Positions 27,281 to 36,974 of a stretch of 64,000 nt of DNA are shown here, in pieces; position 1 is the first letter of the stretch; each line of letters begins with the position of its first letter. The notes beneath the pieces are model-generated. The model had not been told where the DNA came from and made no database searches. It saw only the letters and a program-made list of their open reading frames with translations. Source of the stretch: Sphaerotilus uruguayifluvii (GTDB lineage Bacteria; Pseudomonadota; Gammaproteobacteria; Burkholderiales; Burkholderiaceae_C); the NCBI RefSeq assembly GCF_013294065.1, contig NZ_JABSNM010000025.1, positions 1-64,000 on the forward strand, in the 5' to 3' direction. The position numbers and the translations under genes are program-made.

Positions 27281-29005
27281 ATGAGCTTCGACGTCGACAT
27301 CGGACACACCAGCGCCAGCGGGGTGCGGGAACACAACGAGGATTTCGCCGCTGCCGTGCGCGCCGGTGCGCAGGAGCCGGGTCGCGGCCTGATCGCGGCC
27401 GTGGCCGATGGCGTGTCGGCCGGCGGCCTGGGGCGCGAGGCCGCGCAGACCACGGTGATGAGCCTGGTGCAGGACTTCCATGCCGCACCGGCCACCTGGG
27501 AGACGACGGTCGTCCTTGACCGCCTGATCGGCGCCCAGAACGCCTGGCTCGCCGACCACAACCGACGCCGTGGCGGCCCCGGCGGCGATCGTGCCTCCGG
27601 ACTGACCACGCTGACGGCGCTGGCCCTGCAGGGCCACACCTGGACGGTCGCCCACGTCGGCGACACCCGGGCCTGGCTGCTGCGTGCGGGCGAGCTGCAG
27701 CAGCTCACCCAGGACCATGCCATCGATCATCCCGACTTCCGCAGCCAGCTCACCCGCGCGGTCGGCCTCGACCTGGCGGTGCGCGCCGACTACCTCCAGG
27801 GCGAGCTGCAGACCGGCGACATCTTCATGCTCACCACCGATGGCGTGCATGGCGTGCTCCGGCCCGAGCAGATCCGCGGCCTGCTGGCGGCCACGCCAGC
27901 GCAGATCGCCAGCGAGGCCATCGTCAAGGCCGCACTGGAAGCGGGCAGTCAGGACAACGTCACGGCATTGGTCATGCAAGTTCTGGGCCTGGAGCCGGTG
28001 CGGCTGCAGGACACGCTGCTGCAGGCGCGCCAGCTGCCGGTGCCGCCGCGCATGCGTCCCGGCGACGTGCTCGACGGCTGGAGCATCACCGCGCTGGTGG
28101 CCGACACCGGCGTGCACCGGCTCTACCAGGCGCGCGATCCGGCCAGCCGCGAGCTGGTGGCGATCAAGACGCTGCACGAGTCGCGCGCCAGCGACCGCGA
28201 GGAGCAGGCGATGCTGGCGCACGAGGCCTGGCTGGGCCTGCAGGTGACCGACAGCGGCGCGCCCGGCTTCGTGCGGGTGCGCCAGGTCCGCGCGCCGAGC
28301 GCCTTCTACACCGTCTTCGACTGGCACAGCGGCCACACGCTGGAGCAGCTGCTGGCCGAGCAGGCGCGGCGCTTCGCGATCCCCGAGGTGGTGCAGGGCG
28401 GGCTGGCGGTGTGCCGCGCGCTCGGGCGGCTGCACCGCATTGGGGTGATCCACCGCGACATCAAGCCCGGCAACCTGCATCTGGGCGAGGACGGCCAGTG
28501 GCGGGTGCTCGATCTGGGCGTGGCGGTGTCGGGCCGCGAGCCGGCGTCCACGCGCACGCTGCATGCCGGCACGCCCAGCTACATGAATCCGGAGCAGTGG
28601 GAGGGCGCCGAGGGCCGGCCGGCCGACACCGGCAGCGACCTGTTCGCGCTGGGCGTGACGCTCTACCAGTGGCTGACCGGCCGGCTGCCCTATGGCGAGA
28701 TCGAGCCGTGGCAGACCGCGCGCTTCCGGCGCGATCCGGTGGCGCCCTCGCGCCTGCGCCCGGAGGTGCCGATCTGGCTCGACCATGTGGTGATGAAGGC
28801 GATCGCGCGCGATCCGCGCCAGCGCTTCGAGACCGCCGAGGAGTTCGCGCTGGCGCTCGAGCGTGGCGCATCCAGGCCGCTGAACGCGCCGGCGTCCACG
28901 CCGCTGGTGCGGCGCGACCCGGCCTGGGCCTGGAAGGTCACCTGCGTGATCTCGCTGGGCTTCAACCTGATGCTGGTGATCTGGCTGCTGTTCCTGCCGC
29001 GGTGA
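27281..29005 (+). CDS. Bifunctional PP2C phosphatase / Ser-Thr protein kinase, membrane-anchored
   Basis: This 574-residue protein has an N-terminal PP2C domain (about residues 1-235; REHNEDF, AAVADGVS, VAHVGDTRAW, LTTDGVHGVL, SQDNVT with the metal-binding Asp residues). It continues with a kinase domain (about 270-525; VAIKTL lysine, catalytic loop HRDIKPGNL, DLG in place of DFG, GTPSYMNPEQ) and a C-terminal transmembrane helix (SLGFNLMLVIWLLFLP). The glycine-rich loop is degenerate. Such fusions neighbour nitrate transport and reductase genes in several Burkholderiales, which suggests a role in controlling nitrate uptake or reduction. The target is unknown. It is divergent from the flavoprotein gene and convergent with narK. 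Confidence 0.9.
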   Translation: MSFDVDIGHTSASGVREHNEDFAAAVRAGAQEPGRGLIAAVADGVSAGGLGREAAQTTVMSLVQDFHAAPATWETTVVLDRLIGAQNAWLADHNRRRGGPGGDRASGLTTLTALALQGHTWTVAHVGDTRAWLLRAGELQQLTQDHAIDHPDFRSQLTRAVGLDLAVRADYLQGELQTGDIFMLTTDGVHGVLRPEQIRGLLAATPAQIASEAIVKAALEAGSQDNVTALVMQVLGLEPVRLQDTLLQARQLPVPPRMRPGDVLDGWSITALVADTGVHRLYQARDPASRELVAIKTLHESRASDREEQAMLAHEAWLGLQVTDSGAPGFVRVRQVRAPSAFYTVFDWHSGHTLEQLLAEQARRFAIPEVVQGGLAVCRALGRLHRIGVIHRDIKPGNLHLGEDGQWRVLDLGVAVSGREPASTRTLHAGTPSYMNPEQWEGAEGRPADTGSDLFALGVTLYQWLTGRLPYGEIEPWQTARFRRDPVAPSRLRPEVPIWLDHVVMKAIARDPRQRFETAEEFALALERGASRPLNAPASTPLVRRDPAWAWKVTCVISLGFNLMLVIWLLFLPR

Positions 29006-29047: not shown

Positions 29048-30304
29048 TCAGGCGGCGCGGCGGGCGCCGGCCGGCGAGGTGCCGACGGTCGTCGGGGCCG
29101 TGCGGGCGCGGCCGCCCTTCTCGGCCCAGGTGCGGGTCCAGCGGATCTGCACGATGCGCAGCATCGCCAGCATGCCCACGGCCAGCACCGCGAAGGCCAC
29201 GAAGCCCCACAGGTAGGTGCCGGCATGCTGCTTCGACAGGCCCATCGCGTTCGGGATGAAGCCGCCGCCCAGCGCGCCCACCTCGCCGATCATCGAGCCG
29301 GCCACCGCGGTCGACAGCGGCCAGCGCAGCGGCACCAGCTGGAACAGCGCGCCGTTGCCCGCGCCCAGCGCGGCGAAGCACAGCATGAACAGCAGCGTCG
29401 TCACCGGCAGCGAGGTGCCCGCGAGGCCGCAGGCCACCAGCGTGATCGCCACCAGCACCAGCACGCCGCTGAGCGTGTTGATGCCGCCGATGCGGTCGGA
29501 GATGTAGCCGCCGACGACCCGCACGCCCGAGCCCATCACGGTGGCCAGCATCGTCAGCTGGCCGGCCTCGACCTTGGTGACCTTGAACTGGTCGTAGAAG
29601 TAGGTCGGCAGGAAGCTGGACAGGCCGATGAAGCCGCCGAAGGTCACGACATAGATCAGGCTGAAGGCCCAGCCGTCCTTCTCGAACAGGCAGGAGATGT
29701 GCTCGCGGAAGGTCTGGTGCTCGACATCGGGCGGCTCCTTCGCGGCGAACCACATCACCAGCATCGGCAGCACCATCGTGCACGCAGCCAGGCCGTAGAC
29801 GGTCTGCCAGCCGAACTTCGTCGCCAGCGGCGGCGCGAACAGCACCGCCAGCACGGTGCCGGAGTTGCCGGCGCCGGCGATGCCCATCGCCAGGCCCTTG
29901 TACTTCGGCGGGAACCAGCCCGAGCCCAGCGACAGCGCCACGCCGAAGGAGGCGCCGGCGATGCCCAGCAGCACGCCCATCGCCAGCACCTCGTCGTAGG
30001 TGTCGACCGCGAAGTAGCCGAAGGCCAGCGCGGCCATGATCAGGCTCATCTCGACCATCGCCGCGTTCTTGCGGCCGATGTACTGCGCCAGGATGCCGAG
30101 CGGGAAGCGCATCAGCGCACCGGCCAGGATCGGCACCGAGATCATGAAGCCCTTCTCGGCGGCGCTCAGGTGGAAGGTCTCGCTGATGAACGGACCCATC
30201 GCGCCGTTGAGCACCCAGATGGCGAAGCAGAAGTCGAAGTACAGGAACGAGGCGGCCAGGGTCGGCCAGTGCCCCGACTTGAGGAAAGTCTTGAAGTCGG
30301 TCAT
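29048..30304 (-). CDS. narK: Nitrate/nitrite transporter, NarK family (MFS)
   Basis: This 418-residue major facilitator protein has twelve predicted membrane helices. Nitrate-porter signatures include GIAGAGNSGTVLAVLFAPPLA in the first half and AALGAGNGALFQLVPLRW in the second. The MFS loop motif is present as AQYIGRKN. It imports nitrate for NasA. The short cytoplasmic C-terminal tail has several Arg/Thr/Ser residues that could be phosphorylated by the neighbouring kinase (inference). The promoter side has a sigma-54 sequence and a hairpin-rich leader. Confidence 0.93.
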   Translation of the reverse strand: MTDFKTFLKSGHWPTLAASFLYFDFCFAIWVLNGAMGPFISETFHLSAAEKGFMISVPILAGALMRFPLGILAQYIGRKNAAMVEMSLIMAALAFGYFAVDTYDEVLAMGVLLGIAGASFGVALSLGSGWFPPKYKGLAMGIAGAGNSGTVLAVLFAPPLATKFGWQTVYGLAACTMVLPMLVMWFAAKEPPDVEHQTFREHISCLFEKDGWAFSLIYVVTFGGFIGLSSFLPTYFYDQFKVTKVEAGQLTMLATVMGSGVRVVGGYISDRIGGINTLSGVLVLVAITLVACGLAGTSLPVTTLLFMLCFAALGAGNGALFQLVPLRWPLSTAVAGSMIGEVGALGGGFIPNAMGLSKQHAGTYLWGFVAFAVLAVGMLAMLRIVQIRWTRTWAEKGGRARTAPTTVGTSPAGARRAA

Positions 30305-30350
30305 GGGGTCGCGTCAGCTAGGGGGAGCGGGGCGGCACAAGGCATGCGCG

Positions 30351-30447
30351 CCTGCGGGACGCAGGTGTCACGGGGTGACACGGTCCGGCCCGTCATCGGG
30401 TCGGGCCCGGCCCTGCGGTGGGGCCGGCCGGTCGCGGCTGCGCGACC
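30351..30447 (-). promoter_or_regulatory. Hairpin-rich leader of narK, candidate antitermination target
   Basis: The leader on the minus strand holds three short hairpins: GGTCGC/GCGACC with a six-base loop (30430-30447), GTGTCA/TGACAC with a five-base loop (30365-30381), and CCTGC/GCAGG (30351-30365). A larger GC-rich stem sits between the first two. ANTAR regulators bind paired short hairpins with six-base loops, and such a regulator is encoded by the divergent gene. The loop sequence GCAGCC does not show the published A1/G4 pattern exactly, so the assignment is tentative. Confidence 0.45.
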
Positions 30448-30459
30448 ATTCGCGAATCC

Positions 30460-30476
30460 AAGCAAGCGTCATGCCT
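30460..30476 (-). promoter_or_regulatory. Sigma-54 promoter of narK
   Basis: On the minus strand AGGCATGACGCTTGCTT matches the -24/-12 consensus TGGCACG-N4-TTGC with correct GG-to-GC spacing and two mismatches. The predicted start near 30450 gives a leader of about 146 bases before narK. The remainder of the 318-bp gap (30477-30622) shows no gene. Confidence 0.65.
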
Positions 30477-30622
30477 GCGACGCCCCGGATCCAGGCCGGG
30501 CGGCGGGGCTGGCCTGAGGTCTGCTAGATGAGGGGGACGACTGCCGGGCCGCCTTCGTGCCGATGCCCGCAGCATGCCTACAACGATCCTGTCCATTCCT
30601 GTCCTCCCACCGGATTCCCGCC

Positions 30623-31897
30623 GTGCTGAAGATCCTTGCCGTGGCCCCTGCGCAGCCCGATGCGCCGACCCTCGTGACCGACCTGGAGTCCAACGGACTG
30701 CAGGTCTGTGCCCGCTGCACATGCGCCAGCATGGTGCGCGAAGCGGTGCGTCATGCACCAGACATGGTCGTCGTCTGGGAGCCTCACCCGGGCGAGGAGC
30801 TGTTCGAGGCGGCGCGGCTGCTCGAGTCGGCCGCGCCGGCGCCGGTGCTGGTCTTCACCAGCGACGTGCGCGCCGAGACGATGGAGGCCGCGATCGCGGC
30901 CGGCATCGACGGCTGGGTGGTCAACGGCTATGCGGCCGGACGGCTGCGCCCGCTGATCCAGTTCACCGCGGCGCGCCACCGCCAGGTGCGCCAGATGCGC
31001 GAGGAGCTCGGCGACCTGAAGCGCCGCTTCGAGGAGCGCAAGCTGGTCGACCGCGCCAAGGGCATCCTGATGAGCGCGCGCCAGATCAGCGAGGACGAGG
31101 CCTTCCGGCTGCTGCGCTCGGCCTCGATGCATGCGAAGCAGCGCATCGGCCAGGTCTCGCAGCAGGTCATCGACTCGGCCCACTATGCGGAGGCGATCAA
31201 CCGGTCCGGGCGGCTGCGCATGCTGTCGCAGCGCATCGTCAAGCTCTATGCGCTGGCGGCCGCCGGCGTCGAGTCGGCCGGCTCGCGTGCGCTGCTGGCC
31301 GATTCGGTGACGCAGGTCGAGCAGAGCCTGGCGGTGCTGGGACGCACGCTGTCGCGGCCGACCTTCGGCGACCTGCTCGATGCGGTGCAGCAGACCTGGA
31401 GCGCGGTGCATTCGAGCCTGGGCAGCGCGCCGGTGGCGCCGCGGGTGGCGCTGCTCGACCAGGAGGCCGAGCGGCTGCTGGACCTGTCCGACCGGCTGAC
31501 GCAGGCGCTGGAGAATGCGGGGCTGGCGCCGTCGCTGCATGTCATCAACGTCTCGGGGCGCCAGCGCATGCTCGCGCAGCGCCTGGCCAAGCTGGCGCTG
31601 CTGCGCGGCGGCCCGGCGGTGGCGGCCGGCGAGCCGCTGCCGGTCGACCTGGCGCCGACCGCCGAGGCCTTCGAGCGCGGCCTGGCCTATCTGCGCGAGA
31701 TCCCGCTGTCGACCCCGCTGATCCGCGACGGCCTGGCGCGGGCCGAGGCCACCTGGCGCGACATGCTCGCCGCGGTGCGCGCCGGCGCGCAGCAGGGCGC
31801 GCGCGTCACGCTGGCCGCCAGCAGCGAGTCGCTGCTGGAGCTGTTCGACGCGCTGACCCACGAGTACGAGCAGAGCATGCAGATGCTGATGGGCTGA
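30623..31897 (+). CDS. ANTAR-domain regulator with PilJ-like sensor segments (nitrate-responsive antiterminator)
   Basis: This 424-residue protein starts at GTG. Residues 1-115 resemble a response-regulator receiver lacking a clear phospho-Asp site. Residues about 130-190 form an ANTAR RNA-binding domain (ERKLVDRAKGILMSARQISE, DEAFRLLRSASMHAKQRI). They are followed by two PilJ-type helical segments, each with the marker NRSGRLRMLSQR or NVSGRQRMLAQR (about 205 and 310). This type of helical module, also seen in NarX-like sensors, is used to detect nitrate or nitrite. In Klebsiella NasR, a NIT sensor plus ANTAR lets transcription proceed through the nas leader. Position beside narK supports the same role here. 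Confidence 0.85.
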   Translation: MLKILAVAPAQPDAPTLVTDLESNGLQVCARCTCASMVREAVRHAPDMVVVWEPHPGEELFEAARLLESAAPAPVLVFTSDVRAETMEAAIAAGIDGWVVNGYAAGRLRPLIQFTAARHRQVRQMREELGDLKRRFEERKLVDRAKGILMSARQISEDEAFRLLRSASMHAKQRIGQVSQQVIDSAHYAEAINRSGRLRMLSQRIVKLYALAAAGVESAGSRALLADSVTQVEQSLAVLGRTLSRPTFGDLLDAVQQTWSAVHSSLGSAPVAPRVALLDQEAERLLDLSDRLTQALENAGLAPSLHVINVSGRQRMLAQRLAKLALLRGGPAVAAGEPLPVDLAPTAEAFERGLAYLREIPLSTPLIRDGLARAEATWRDMLAAVRAGAQQGARVTLAASSESLLELFDALTHEYEQSMQMLMG

Positions 31898-31996: not shown

Positions 31997-33007
31997 ATGA
32001 GCCTTGCCGACCTGCCGCCCGACGCCGCCGTCGCGTCCGCCGAACTCACCGCCGGACTGCTGGACCTGATCCGCGTCGACGGCGCGATGGTCACGCTCAA
32101 GCGCGCCGAGGACGGGCGCTACCTCTGGGCCAGCCCGGCCTGGTGCGACTGGGTGGGGGACGAGCGCCCGGTCGGCGGCGCCAGCGACCTGGAGCTTCTG
32201 CCGCAGGCGGCCGCCAACGCCATCCAGGCGGCCGACCTGCGGGCGCTGGCCGCGGCCGGGCCGGTCTCGGTCGATGACCATGTCTTCGAGCAGGGCGGGC
32301 GCGACCGGCGCGTCGAGTTCCATGCGGTGCGCCGGGTGCTGACCGAGCCCGACGGCGAGCGCCGGCTGCTGACGCTGTGGCGCGACGTGACGGTGCTGCG
32401 CCGCGAGGCGCAGCAGCTGCAGCAGGCGCTCGGCCAGATCGAGCGCCAGCACCAGGCGCTCGAGGCGATGCGCCGCCAGCACGAGCAGGGCCTGGACCGT
32501 CCGGGCGAGCTGTTCCGGCGCGAGCATTTCGAGGAGCACCTGCGCCGCGAGGCCGCGCTGTCGCAGCGCGAGCACCGCGAGTTCGCGCTGGTGCTGCTGG
32601 CGATCGACCGCATCGAGGCGCTGCGCCAGTCCCGCGGCGAGGCCGCGGTGCAGCGTGTCGTCGAGGTGATGGGCCACCTGATGCGCACCAACACCCGGGC
32701 GATGGACGTGCTGTCGCAGCTCGGCGACGGCCGCTTCGCGATCCTGCTGTCGGGCGTGGGCCTGGCGACCGCGCATGCGCGCATGGAGCACCTGCGCCGC
32801 GCCTGCGCCACGCAGGTGGTGGTGCAGGACGGCCAGAGCCTGGGCTTCGAGGTGTCGATCGGCATCGCGAGCTTCCCGCACACCGCGGCGAGCCTGTCGG
32901 AGCTCAGCCAGGCGGCGGTGCGGGCGCTCGGCGACGCGCGGCTGCGCGGCGGCAACCGCATCGCGCTGGCGTCGATCCGGCTCGGCGAGGCGGTGCCGAT
33001 CGAGTGA
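31997..33007 (+). CDS. PAS-like plus degenerate GGDEF protein
   Basis: This 336-residue protein has an N-terminal PAS-like region (about residues 25-130, ending TLWRDVTVLRREA), a coiled coil rich in Gln (130-165), and a GGDEF-fold domain (about 170-330; the DRIEALRQSRGEAAVQRVVEVM helix, then GFEVSIGIASFP). The active-site loop reads GDGRF in place of GGDEF, so diguanylate cyclase activity is unlikely; a binding or dead-enzyme role is more probable. Its N-terminal PAS could sense a ligand. It follows the ANTAR gene by 99 bp on the same strand. Confidence 0.75.
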   Translation: MSLADLPPDAAVASAELTAGLLDLIRVDGAMVTLKRAEDGRYLWASPAWCDWVGDERPVGGASDLELLPQAAANAIQAADLRALAAAGPVSVDDHVFEQGGRDRRVEFHAVRRVLTEPDGERRLLTLWRDVTVLRREAQQLQQALGQIERQHQALEAMRRQHEQGLDRPGELFRREHFEEHLRREAALSQREHREFALVLLAIDRIEALRQSRGEAAVQRVVEVMGHLMRTNTRAMDVLSQLGDGRFAILLSGVGLATAHARMEHLRRACATQVVVQDGQSLGFEVSIGIASFPHTAASLSELSQAAVRALGDARLRGGNRIALASIRLGEAVPIE

Positions 33008-34659: not shown

Positions 34660-34765
34660 TGCGCTGCGGTGTTGGCGGTCTCGGGTTTGGCTCGGACGCG
34701 ACAGGCGGTCGCCGATTCCCCGTCCGATTGTAGTGGTGCGCTGCCGCAACGTTTACAATTCACGC

Positions 34766-34980
34766 TGTTGGTGCTCGTGCCGCCAGTCACGGCGGTCGGG
34801 TTAAACGGGAAACAGGAAGGTCGAGACCCGCCGGGTCGGCCCAACCTGTGCTGCCCCCGCAACGGTAAGCGGACGGGAGCCTCGCGGCTCTCTGCCTTCT
34901 GCGCACGGTACCACTGGCGTCACTGCGATGCCGGGAAGGTCGCGGAAGGTTCGTCCGACAGCCCGGATACCGGCCAACGG
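34766..34980 (+). ncRNA. Cobalamin riboswitch
   Basis: Elements appear in the expected order: TTGGTGC at the start, GGGTTAAACGGGAAACAGG (34798-34816), the B12 box region CTGCCCCCGCAACGGTAAGC (34851-34870), CCACTGGCG, GGGAAGG, and the closing strand AGCCCGGATACCGGCC. It lies before btuB in a 419-bp gap (34660-35078). AdoCbl binding should lower expression of btuB and probably of the operon that follows. A possible -10 box TACAAT is at 34754-34759. Confidence 0.95.
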
Positions 34981-35078
34981 GGGGCCTGACGATGCCGCGA
35001 CTGCCGTGGCGCGACAGGCCGTGATGTGCGGCGCCTGCGGGGAAGCTGGCGTGCACGAGACGACCATCCGCTCCTCCC

Positions 35079-36974
35079 ATGTCCATCCTGTCCCGTGGCA
35101 GCCGTCTGCCCGAACCGCGCCTGCGCGCCACCGCCCTGGCCGCGGCCGTCCTGTCGTGCCTGCCGCTGGTCGCCGCCGCCCAGTCCGCACCTGCCGTGGC
35201 GACCGCCGCCGCCTCGCTGCCGGCCGTCGTCGTCACCGCCACCCGCACGCCGGTCCAGGTCGACCGCACCGTCGCCGACGTCACCGTGCTGAGCGCCGAC
35301 GACCTGGCGGTCCAGTCGGGCCGCACGCTCTCCGAGGTGCTGGCGCAGCAGGCCGGCATCCAGTTCAGCTCCAACGGCGGCCAGGGCAAGTCGAGCTCGC
35401 TGTTCGTGCGCGGCCTGGAGGCCCGTCATGTGCTGCTGCTGGTCGACGGGGTCCGCTACGGCTCGGCGACGCTGGGCACGCCGGACTTCGACAACCTGCC
35501 GCTGGGCGACATCGAGCGCATCGAGATCGTGCGCGGCCCGCTGGCCAGCCTGTACGGCAGCGATGCGGTCGGCGGCGTGGTGCAGGTCTTCACCCGCCGC
35601 GCCCAGCCCGGCCAGGGCCTGCGCGGCAACGGCTCGCTGACGGCCGGCAGCCATGCCTACGCCCAGGGCAGCGGCGGCCTGAGCTTCGACGACGGCCTGT
35701 GGAACGGCGCCGTCCAGCTGGTGCACACCGAGAACCGCGGCTTCTCGTCGACGAACGAGCGCGTGCTCTACGGCAGCCACAACGCCGATCCGGACGGCTT
35801 CAACCAGAACGCCGGCAGCGTGCAGCTGGGCCTGCGCCTGCCGCAGGGCTGGCAGCTCAACGCCCGGCTGCTGCAGTCGGAGGCCCGCTCGGCCTATGAC
35901 GACGGCCCCGGTGCCGACTCGCTGGCCCGCCTGCGCACGCAGGTCGCCTCGGTCGATGCCACCGGCCAGGTGCTGTCCGGCTGGACGACGCAGCTGCGTG
36001 TCGCGCGCAGCGCCAACGACTACGAGACGATGGCCTCGGCCTCGCCGTGGACCGACCTGGGCACGATCGCCACCGTGCAGCAGCAGATCAGCTGGGACAA
36101 CACCTTCGCGCTGCCGGTGGGCTCGCTGCTGCTGGTGGCCGAGCACCTGACGCAGAAGGTGTCCAAGCCGGCCCAGGACTACGACATCACCGAGCGCACC
36201 ATCCGCAGCGTCGCGCTGGGCTACAACGCCGTCGTCGGCGCGCACACCGTGCAGGCCAGCGTGCGCCACGACGCCAACTCGCAGTACGGCGACCAGACCA
36301 CCGGCAACCTCGGCTACGGCTATGCGCTGACCCCGGCGCTGCGCCTGACCGCGCAGGCCGGCACCAGCTTCGTCGCGCCGAGCTTCAACCAGCTCTACTG
36401 GCCGTCCTACGGCAACCCGCGGCTCGAGCCGGAGAAGGGCAAGCACGCCGAGATCGGCCTGCGCTACGTGCAGGGGGCGCACCAGCTGTCGGCCACCGTG
36501 TTCGGCAACCGCATGCGCGGCTACATCACCCAGGGCGCCAACCCGGTCAACCTGCCGTATGCGCAGAGCCACGGCGTGACGCTGGCCTATGACGGCCAGC
36601 TCGGTCCGGTGCGCCTGTCGGCCGCTGTCGACCACATGAACCCGCGCAACGACACCGAGGGCAGCACCAGCCAGGGCAATCTGCTGCAGCGCCGCGCACG
36701 CAACGACGCCAAGCTGTCGGCCGATGTCGAGCTGGGCGCCTGGACGGTCGGCACCGCGATGCAGGCCTACAGCCACCGCTTCGACGACGTCGCCAACACC
36801 CGCCGCCTGGCCGGCTATGCCGTCGCCGACCTGCATGCGCAGTGGCAGTTCCAGCGCGACTGGTCGCTGGGCGCGCGGCTGAACAACGTGTTCGACCGCC
36901 AGTACGAGACCGCCTGGGGCTACAACCAGCCCGGCCGCGAGCTCTACGTCACGCTGCGTTACAGCCCGCGCTGA
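35079..36974 (+). CDS. btuB: TonB-dependent vitamin B12 outer-membrane receptor
   Basis: This 631-residue receptor has a signal peptide (LAAAVLSCLPLVAAAQ), a TonB-box-like start (PAVVVTATRTPV near residue 50), a plug domain (about 60-165; SSLFVRGLEARHVLLLVDGVRYG, IERIEIVRGPLASLYGSDAVGGVV), a 22-strand barrel, and the C-terminal aromatic end NQPGRELYVTLRYSPR. Length and plug motifs match BtuB. It sits 98 bp after the riboswitch. No obvious ribosome-binding site precedes the ATG; the leader just before it reads CTCCTCC, the complement of a Shine-Dalgarno sequence, which could be part of the switch's expression platform. Confidence 0.93.
   Translation: MSILSRGSRLPEPRLRATALAAAVLSCLPLVAAAQSAPAVATAAASLPAVVVTATRTPVQVDRTVADVTVLSADDLAVQSGRTLSEVLAQQAGIQFSSNGGQGKSSSLFVRGLEARHVLLLVDGVRYGSATLGTPDFDNLPLGDIERIEIVRGPLASLYGSDAVGGVVQVFTRRAQPGQGLRGNGSLTAGSHAYAQGSGGLSFDDGLWNGAVQLVHTENRGFSSTNERVLYGSHNADPDGFNQNAGSVQLGLRLPQGWQLNARLLQSEARSAYDDGPGADSLARLRTQVASVDATGQVLSGWTTQLRVARSANDYETMASASPWTDLGTIATVQQQISWDNTFALPVGSLLLVAEHLTQKVSKPAQDYDITERTIRSVALGYNAVVGAHTVQASVRHDANSQYGDQTTGNLGYGYALTPALRLTAQAGTSFVAPSFNQLYWPSYGNPRLEPEKGKHAEIGLRYVQGAHQLSATVFGNRMRGYITQGANPVNLPYAQSHGVTLAYDGQLGPVRLSAAVDHMNPRNDTEGSTSQGNLLQRRARNDAKLSADVELGAWTVGTAMQAYSHRFDDVANTRRLAGYAVADLHAQWQFQRDWSLGARLNNVFDRQYETAWGYNQPGRELYVTLRYSPR

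Follow-up and report, generated by a model that had tools for sequence, protein, structure and literature searches.

The question raised by the locus described here is how narK, a gene for a nitrate/nitrite transporter, is controlled when it is preceded by a sigma-54-type promoter sequence and a hairpin-rich leader and lies back to back with a gene for an ANTAR-domain protein. The locus is contained in a 64,000-nucleotide stretch of the Sphaerotilus uruguayifluvii genome (NCBI RefSeq assembly GCF_013294065.1, contig NZ_JABSNM010000025.1, positions 1 to 64,000), referred to hereafter as the window. On the basis of sequence comparison and structure prediction, the divergent gene quite probably encodes a one-chain protein in which a sensor for nitrate (or nitrite) is joined to an RNA-binding regulator that acts on the narK leader. 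The regulator gene and the narK leader are a real, conserved regulator-target pair. The computed support consists of the domains of the protein, a NIT-like predicted fold, retained GxxR boxes, the lost phospho-Asp, the arrangement of the sigma-54 site and two hairpins (P1 and P2), covariation of their stems, and a single good site in the genome. The genes and the promoter are as follows.

29048 to 30304, minus strand: narK, encoding a nitrate/nitrite transporter of the NarK/NasA family within the major facilitator superfamily, with matches to TIGR00886 and PF07690
30461 to 30476, minus strand: sigma-54-type promoter sequence AGGCATGACGCTTGCT, a GG-N10-GC element with the usual spacing
30623 to 31897, plus strand: regulator gene, divergent from narK, encoding pseudo-receiver, ANTAR, PilJ and PilJ domains in that order (424 amino acids from the GTG at 30623)

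In the mechanism proposed, binding of nitrate (or nitrite) in the NIT-like tandem-PilJ module would free or re-orient the ANTAR domain, which would then bind two hexaloops, those of P1 and P2, that the narK transcript initiated with sigma-54 forms at its 5' end. Such binding would permit expression of narK after initiation, either by antitermination or by release of translation.

The locus and its predicted promoter

The narK protein matches TIGR00886 with E 5.2e-71 and 239.7 bits, under the 311.7 cut-off of that model, and PF07690 with E 1.5e-38. For comparison, 62 related loci were fetched, 55 via a search of the family and seven from the genus; loci, genomes and contigs are designated by L, G and C numbers, respectively. 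The closest named relatives with the regulator are Sphaerotilus natans ATCC 13338 (91% identical) and S. sulfidivorans (90%). A narK- or nirB-like gene is present in 62 of the 62 fetched loci, and in 58 of them the regulator gene and narK or nirB are transcribed divergently, 84-453 bp apart.

The sequence AGGCATGACGCTTGCT displays GG and GC at the spacing of what we take to be the sigma-54 consensus, and sigma-54 itself is encoded in the genome (PF04552, E 1.6e-63). From the 63 loci formed by the window and its 62 relatives, two were omitted: L083, for which a divergent start could not be identified, and L105, whose spacing was negative and whose sequence was too short. Of the remaining 61, 60, including the window, carry a sigma-54-type site scoring at least 19. 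The narK transcript presumably starts at 30450, given the -12 rule that we assume, which predicts a leader of 146 nucleotides (nt). Both the good sigma-54 sequence and the leader of about 146 bases noted in the initial annotation are thus in agreement with the present analysis. NtrC-driven initiation, which it had also put forward, is not supported. In the window, the best NtrC match upstream of the sigma-54 site agrees at 8 of 12 positions, and among the 31 leaders aligned below 11 of 12 positions are reached only in L109 and L110, and 10 of 12 in L077 and L081. The NtrC consensus was likewise assumed by us, and the scan covered the stretch near the promoter, distant enhancers being outside its reach. 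As far as these sequences indicate, NtrC control is unproved and an NtrC site is not conserved.

Two hexaloop hairpins at the predicted start of the narK transcript

The features of the leader are given below; G1 and G4 denote a guanine at loop positions 1 and 4.

30430 to 30447, minus strand: P1, arms GGTCGC and GCGACC around the hexaloop GCAGCC, with G1 and G4; position and loop conserved in relatives
30407 to 30427, minus strand: PM, CCGGCCC-CACCGCA-GGGCCGG, a hairpin within the P1-P2 linker, examined by a linker-half swap test
30385 to 30404, minus strand: P2, arms CCGACCC and GGGCCGG around the hexaloop GATGAC, with G1, G4 and one A-C mismatch; helix covariation
30352 to 30381, minus strand: two further predicted hairpins, GTGTCACCCCGTGACAC and CTGCGTCCCGCAG, individually at 30381-30365 and 30364-30352, without a T-run
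30307 to 30318, minus strand: GCTGACGCGACC, adjoining the narK start codon and complementary to the 5' arm of P1, a possible alternative pairing

As judged from comparison of the leaders, the narK leader carries a real ANTAR-type element. Together with the 12 bases before +1, the leader region is more stable than its shuffled versions (z -3.06; 2 of 200 as stable). The initial annotation had described three short hairpins, and the leader is indeed hairpin-rich, but more than three are predicted, namely P1, PM, P2 and the two downstream. The downstream hairpins are the most conspicuous by sequence. They were rejected as the ANTAR site, since their loops are of 3 nt and no conservation was seen by eye beyond L111, the only locus with a counterpart of the first (GTGTCACCCCGTGACAC).

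Hairpins were sought under a strict rule that required stems of at least five unbroken pairs and left the loop letters unused for selection. One of the 61 loci lacks a site scoring 19, and the test therefore covers 60 loci, with 200 dinucleotide shuffles for comparison. Of these loci, 53 have P1 at their best sigma-54 site, as compared to 4.5 ± 2.1 in the shuffles (maximum 11). When any site scoring 19 is allowed, 55 loci have P1; its loop has G4 in 54 of them and a purine at position 1 likewise in 54. Both P1 and P2 occur at the best sigma-54 site in 21 of the 60 loci (0.46 shuffled, maximum 4), and with a purine at position 1 and G4 in both loops in 19 (0.0 shuffled, maximum 0). The P2 of the window fails the strict rule because its seven-position stem has one A-C mismatch.

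Alignment A1 comprises 31 leaders (30 distinct) that were chosen from the 61 loci partly by a loop bonus and by eye, and counts on it lean towards structure for that reason. In these leaders the first hexaloop lies 17-22 nt past the end of the sigma-54 site and the second 40-47 nt beyond it, loop to loop (44 in the window); P1 starts at about +1 of the predicted sigma-54 transcript. Pairing is kept in 98.3% of cells for P1 and in 92.4% for P2. Fourteen of 19 pairs change on both sides as compared to 10.5 in shuffles, 5 of 500 of which reach 14, and covariation is 0.444 versus 0.219 shuffled and at most 0.149 slid. Position 1 of the loop is A in 17 leaders and G in 14 for P1, and A in 20 and G in 11 for P2. 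Folding and covariation of the leader across relatives had been proposed as a check in the initial annotation, which would have been refuted by a lack of conserved hairpins; the hairpins are conserved. No Rfam family matches the window between 30280 and 30640 at E ≤ 5, and none matches the leaders of five family loci at the gathering threshold.

A weak lead from the folding calculations is that the 5' arm of P1 may pair instead with GCTGACGCGACC. The minimum free energy of the full leader, with this pairing, is -73.8 kcal/mol versus -69.4 kcal/mol with P1 forced.

A third hairpin in the linker

The P1-P2 linker measures 24-29 nt by anchors (about 24) and tends to fold as a hairpin of its own, PM, with a pairing probability of 0.52-0.98 in the window. 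The MAFFT alignment A1 gives PM no single register, and therefore an anchor-based test was employed in which linker halves are swapped. For 20 non-redundant loci the best helix score is 5.55 as compared to 3.92 ± 0.24 in 1000 swaps (maximum 4.9). With seven independent nirB leaders added it is 5.48 versus 4.06 ± 0.22 (27 loci, 2000 swaps, maximum 4.79), and the seven nirB linkers alone give 5.29 native and 4.10 swapped. Column-wise support is weak because the helix slides in register; the column-wise matrix of PM pairs in the 27-locus set reveals small excesses only.

According to published work, the eut RNAs of E. faecalis, which are bound by EutV, have linkers of 5-12 nt; 14 nt is harmful in vivo, and an extension of the linker by 20 nt abolished antitermination in vitro. 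A role of PM as a folded spacer would reconcile the long linker with these limits. By folding the linker of ∼24 nt, PM would place the loops of P1 and P2 within reach of one ANTAR dimer. We tentatively put forward, as something possible rather than probable, a distinct class of ANTAR RNA: hexaloops ∼45 nt apart would be brought to ANTAR-dimer distance by a third, co-evolving spacer hairpin, starting from +1 of a sigma-54 transcript, and would be read by a fused pseudo-receiver-ANTAR-NIT-like protein, the output in part of the family being release of translation and not antitermination. No paper describing a hairpin between P1 and P2, or a receiver-ANTAR-PilJ protein, was found in a search that did not extend to supplementary alignments. 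A comparison with nirB leaders from other genomes of the class (30 loci, 36 genomes searched), intended to reveal the canonical spacing, yielded two chance-like places in a first scan and one against 0.28 expected in a second; it is thus uninformative.

Architecture of the regulator

The protein is predicted to consist of the following segments.

30623 to 30985, plus strand: receiver-like domain with Trp in the phospho-Asp column
31013 to 31171, plus strand: ANTAR domain (PF03861)
31181 to 31894, plus strand: tandem PilJ repeats (PF13675) with IN..G..RM..QR boxes and a predicted NIT-like fold (4akk_B, Z 17.1)

The ANTAR domain matches PF03861 with E 9.7e-19 and 67.3 bits against a curated cut-off of 27.3, and the eleven ANTAR columns inspected are kept in 60-63 of 63 sequences. 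Two PilJ stretches follow (PF13675, E 9.5e-28). These domains had been recognized in the initial annotation, which missed the receiver-like domain at the N-terminus. By sequence the latter is a sub-threshold match only (PF00072, E 0.14); the fold is present in the predicted structure. An AlphaFold2 model built on ten orthologues (mean predicted local distance difference test score, pLDDT, 89.7; predicted template modeling score, pTM, 0.66) shows a receiver fold at the N-terminus and, running into the ANTAR domain, a long helix. In a structure comparison with the whole model, the top match is NasR (4akk_B, Z 18.4, 252 residues), with model residues 170-425 on NasR residues 13-284, the NIT part. 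The second is the EutV-RNA complex (6ww6_B, Z 16.9) on residues 1-188.

The tandem-PilJ module was also folded alone (pLDDT 89.8, pTM 0.87). NasR again ranks first, with Z 17.1 for 4akk_B across 254 residues; PilJ 7zjr, which covers one repeat, is tied with it at 16.2, and NasR is the only match with Z above 12.2 that spans both repeats. Nitrate sensors match one repeat: McpN (6gcv) with Z 14.4, NarQ in the holo form (5iji) with 13.6, and NarX with 12.8. Note that high Z values come easily for helical bundles, and that the Foldseek E-values for the module are weak, the best being 8.1e-3 for PilJ and 2.2e-2 for NasR 4akk. The earlier reading of PilJ segments instead of a NIT sensor stands at the level of Pfam, where no NIT family appears among the matches of the regulator up to E 1. 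Given a predicted fold that has the NIT module as its top match, however, the PilJ pair can hardly be set against NIT as an alternative. The GxxR boxes are retained in the 63 sequences, window included, with G in 63 and R in 63 for repeat 1, and G in 57 and R in 63 for repeat 2.

A profile alignment places an otherwise conserved Trp opposite the phospho-Asp of Rv1626 and KdpE. This column contains Trp in 30 and Asp in 3 of the 63 sequences, and the neighboring column Asp in 11, the alignment being less sure there. Since the column is mostly without Asp, the receiver domain of most members is, to judge from the alignment, unlikely to be phosphorylated, the most likely entry point for the signal being the sensor half. 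The pseudo-receiver would then be a structural part that works independently of phosphorylation.

No match to the full receiver-ANTAR-PilJ-PilJ build was obtained in 274 genomes of the class outside the family. Receiver-ANTAR and tandem-PilJ parts are found there as separate proteins and, because they exist separately, we infer that the regulator may have arisen by their fusion. Stand-alone tandem-PilJ proteins, with N-termini that look secretion-signal-like by eye, are encoded a few kb from nitrate genes at the following places.

L062:10199-10891, L073:2989-2285, L093:10271-10945 and L095:741-61: stand-alone tandem-PilJ proteins

The genome of S. uruguayifluvii contains one other ANTAR match, of 29 bits, on contig C23 (L002, 1453-2298, minus strand). 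That protein has a receiver with a DIRM-type Asp and a short ANTAR-like end, and its gene adjoins histidine-kinase-like open reading frames (ORFs; names assigned by eye).

Distribution of the RNA element

A covariance model, R1, was trained on the P1-P2 leaders, the window site among them. In its own genome the narK leader is the best site (51.2 bits, E 7.5e-6, both for a training site); the next match has E 0.08, and matches from that value upward were taken as chance. Within the genus, R1 finds a site at E < 1e-3 in 8 of 13 genomes, always at the regulator locus; seven are training sites and the one in G301 is untrained. A site is present in 8 of the 10 genomes with the regulator gene and in 0 of the 3 without the full gene (none at E < 0.02).

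In 299 family genomes, 36 places were found at E ≤ 1e-3, comprising 27 training loci and nine new ones. All nine are in narK or nirB leaders: before nirB in G056, G091, G097, G103, G109, G129 and G276, before narK in G096, and before a narK-like fragment followed by nirB in G271. Matches at E 0.0017-0.0082 (G165, G143 and G267:C7) are not in nitrate leaders and were rejected; about three are expected from 299 genomes at E 0.01. In 274 class genomes, R1 gave, beyond two known family members, one weak match in another family (E 0.0084). In G056 more than 2 Mb separates the fused gene, beside narK, from the element found at nirB, an arrangement compatible with action in trans.

Six of these genomes (G091, G097, G103, G109, G129 and G276) have the element but no full-length fused regulator; the element is consequently not the private target of that regulator. 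Receiver-ANTAR matches are listed in G091, G103 and G276, and weaker ones, with E 8.5e-11 to 5.9e-21, in G097, G109 and G129; at L194 (G109) an ANTAR match lies 3.5 kb from the element. On these grounds, NasT-type regulators probably use the element as well.

Alternative explanations

Several observations weigh against the interpretation given here, the six genomes just named among them. Conversely, L112 and L113 (genomes G304 and G305) keep the regulator, 79 and 78% identical, without an R1 site at E < 0.1; the intergenic spacings are 84 and 93 bp, and one of the two genomes is 83% complete. P2 is readable in only 31 of the 61 loci, picked partly by loop letters and by eye, and both loops of the window have G1 and not the A1 that matters in the EutV and NasR work. 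When whole leaders are folded (30 of the 31, L063 being too long), the probability of P1 is below 0.5 in 7 of 30 (0.00 in the window) and that of P2 in 8 of 30. PM is weaker than P1 and P2, with 64% of cells paired in one fixed register, and its score is at most 4, not above the swap mean, in 8 of 27 linkers (L059, L063, L067, L073, L079, L114, L191 and L195). Energies alone would have missed P1 and P2, because global folding disfavors them in the leaders just counted. The element, if it works, must be favored by co-transcriptional folding or by bound protein.

With respect to the output step, classical ANTAR antitermination, in which the bound protein would block a U-poor or Rho-dependent terminator downstream of or overlapping P2, is a serious candidate that falls slightly short of being probable. 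EutV and NasR have been shown to act in this way (PMC3369931, PMC8934654 and PMC7496416), and hairpins predicted by RNAfold follow P2 in many leaders. Nitrate-responsive antitermination had been suggested in the initial annotation. Intrinsic termination in the leader is not supported: the terminator tool finds 0 terminator-like sites in the narK leader of the window, a further count against the interpretation. A looser rule yields a candidate in 12 of the 31 leaders, window included, as compared to 8.2 in shuffles, which is no clear enrichment. The only candidates overlapping P2 in these leaders are P2 itself, in L060 and L081. Antitermination is ranked above control of translation only because it has been shown for other ANTAR systems.

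Control of translation, whereby the stretch past P2 would mask the Shine-Dalgarno sequence or start codon of the first downstream ORF until altered by ANTAR binding, is rather unlikely. It has been proposed for terminator-less matches in PMC3369931. Ten of the 31 leaders combine GGAG ahead of a start codon with a match to RTR.YCTC (one base free) no more than 30 nt past P2, versus 0.03 in shuffles, an expectation that is not independent, the pattern having been derived from the leaders tested. In L059 and L064, CATGTGC stands opposite GCACATG, which lies at the start codon. GGAG before ATG is, however, an ordinary ribosome site, and CTC and GGAG together are absent in the window and the six genus leaders tested, L055 having the CTC stretch alone. 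By eye, L058, L069 and L078 contain short ORFs with their own GGAG between P2 and narK, possibly leader peptides.

A different ligand for the PilJ pair, neither nitrate nor nitrite, is improbable. Single repeats resemble sensors of other ligands and match other four-helix sensors (LytS, TorS, PcaY and YvaQ, Z 13-16; entries 5xsj 15.8, 9a65 14.4, 6s1a 14.2 and 3o1i 13.8) as well as they match nitrate sensors, which likewise tells against a nitrate sensor. Against another ligand stand the narK- or nirB-like gene at every fetched locus, the retained GxxR boxes and the coverage of both repeats by NasR alone among matches above Z 12.2. Finally, hairpins unrelated to the divergent protein, with narK under sigma-54 alone, are very improbable, for although six genomes have the element at nirB without the full-length protein and the element is missing beside two genus orthologues of the protein, the purine at position 1 and G4 of the P1 loop emerged in 54 of 55 loci each while unused in selection, the site follows the gene in the genus, and three of the six exceptions (G091, G103 and G276) have receiver-ANTAR matches.

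Comparison with known systems

The nitrate-sensing, RNA-binding regulator favored here most closely recalls NasR of Klebsiella oxytoca (NIT-ANTAR; nasF leader), likewise a one-chain ANTAR regulator beside nitrate-assimilation genes, and NIT is the top match of the predicted sensor fold. It differs from NasR in its reversed order, with the sensor C-terminal, in its additional pseudo-receiver, and in a sensor for which Pfam reports two PilJ repeats rather than NIT. The initial annotation is supported in its view that a differently built NasR analogue lies next to a sigma-54-led leader, and that leader carries a conserved ANTAR-type hairpin pair.

With NasT/NasS the regulator shares the receiver-like-ANTAR half at its N-terminus and nitrate-assimilation targets; receiver-ANTAR matches cover residues ∼20-190 in many relatives. 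Whereas NasT works with a separate nitrate-binding protein, the window regulator carries its sensor on the same chain. PF13379 (NasS/NrtA-type) has six matches in the genome, of which the top one, the only one whose surroundings were read, lies in an nrtABC-like operon. This nitrate ABC transporter operon is on contig C8 (L207), and no R1 match on C8 is among the 15 matches listed.

EutV and its dual-hexaloop RNA have in common with the present system a receiver-ANTAR fold (Z 16.9 in the comparison with the RNA-bound structure), two hexaloops, G4 and C-G closing pairs, with one mismatch in the P2 stem of the window. Instead of 5-12 nt, the window linker is ∼24 nt, family linkers mostly being able to form a hairpin; the window loops have G1, and no overlapping terminator was found in the leader. 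The sensor domains of McpN, NarX and NarQ are periplasmic and dimeric. They resemble the regulator in having a four-helix module (Z 12.8-14.4, nitrate-bound or wild-type entries) that contains a GxxR box; the regulator has two copies in tandem, in a chain that starts with a receiver fold.

Neighboring genes

On the minus strand past narK lie a nirB-like gene and a nitrate-reductase-like gene, which we take to be nirB and nasA. The nirB-like ORF of the window encodes 445 amino acids versus 811-869 for the nirB ORFs at the new family sites. A gene for a PP2C phosphatase fused to a Ser/Thr kinase (27283-29005, plus strand) is convergent with narK inside the nitrate cluster, and kinase matches occur in 42 of the 62 fetched loci. 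Immediately 3' of the regulator gene is a PAS-GGDEF gene (31997-33007, plus strand), with a relative in 30 of the 62; such a relative also adjoins the lone nirB elements in L190, L191 and L195. A cobalamin riboswitch (RF00174, 78.8 bits, 34752-34992, plus strand) precedes a TonB-receptor-like ORF (35079-36974, named by eye).

Significance

The ANTAR RNA spacing rule may find a natural test in this family, where linkers of about 20 nt exist in nature, though largely with the ability to fold. The regulator in turn suggests a route by which a two-part nitrate switch, NasT with a separate sensor, may have become a one-part switch, through fusion to a NasR-like sensor, with the order of the parts reversed.

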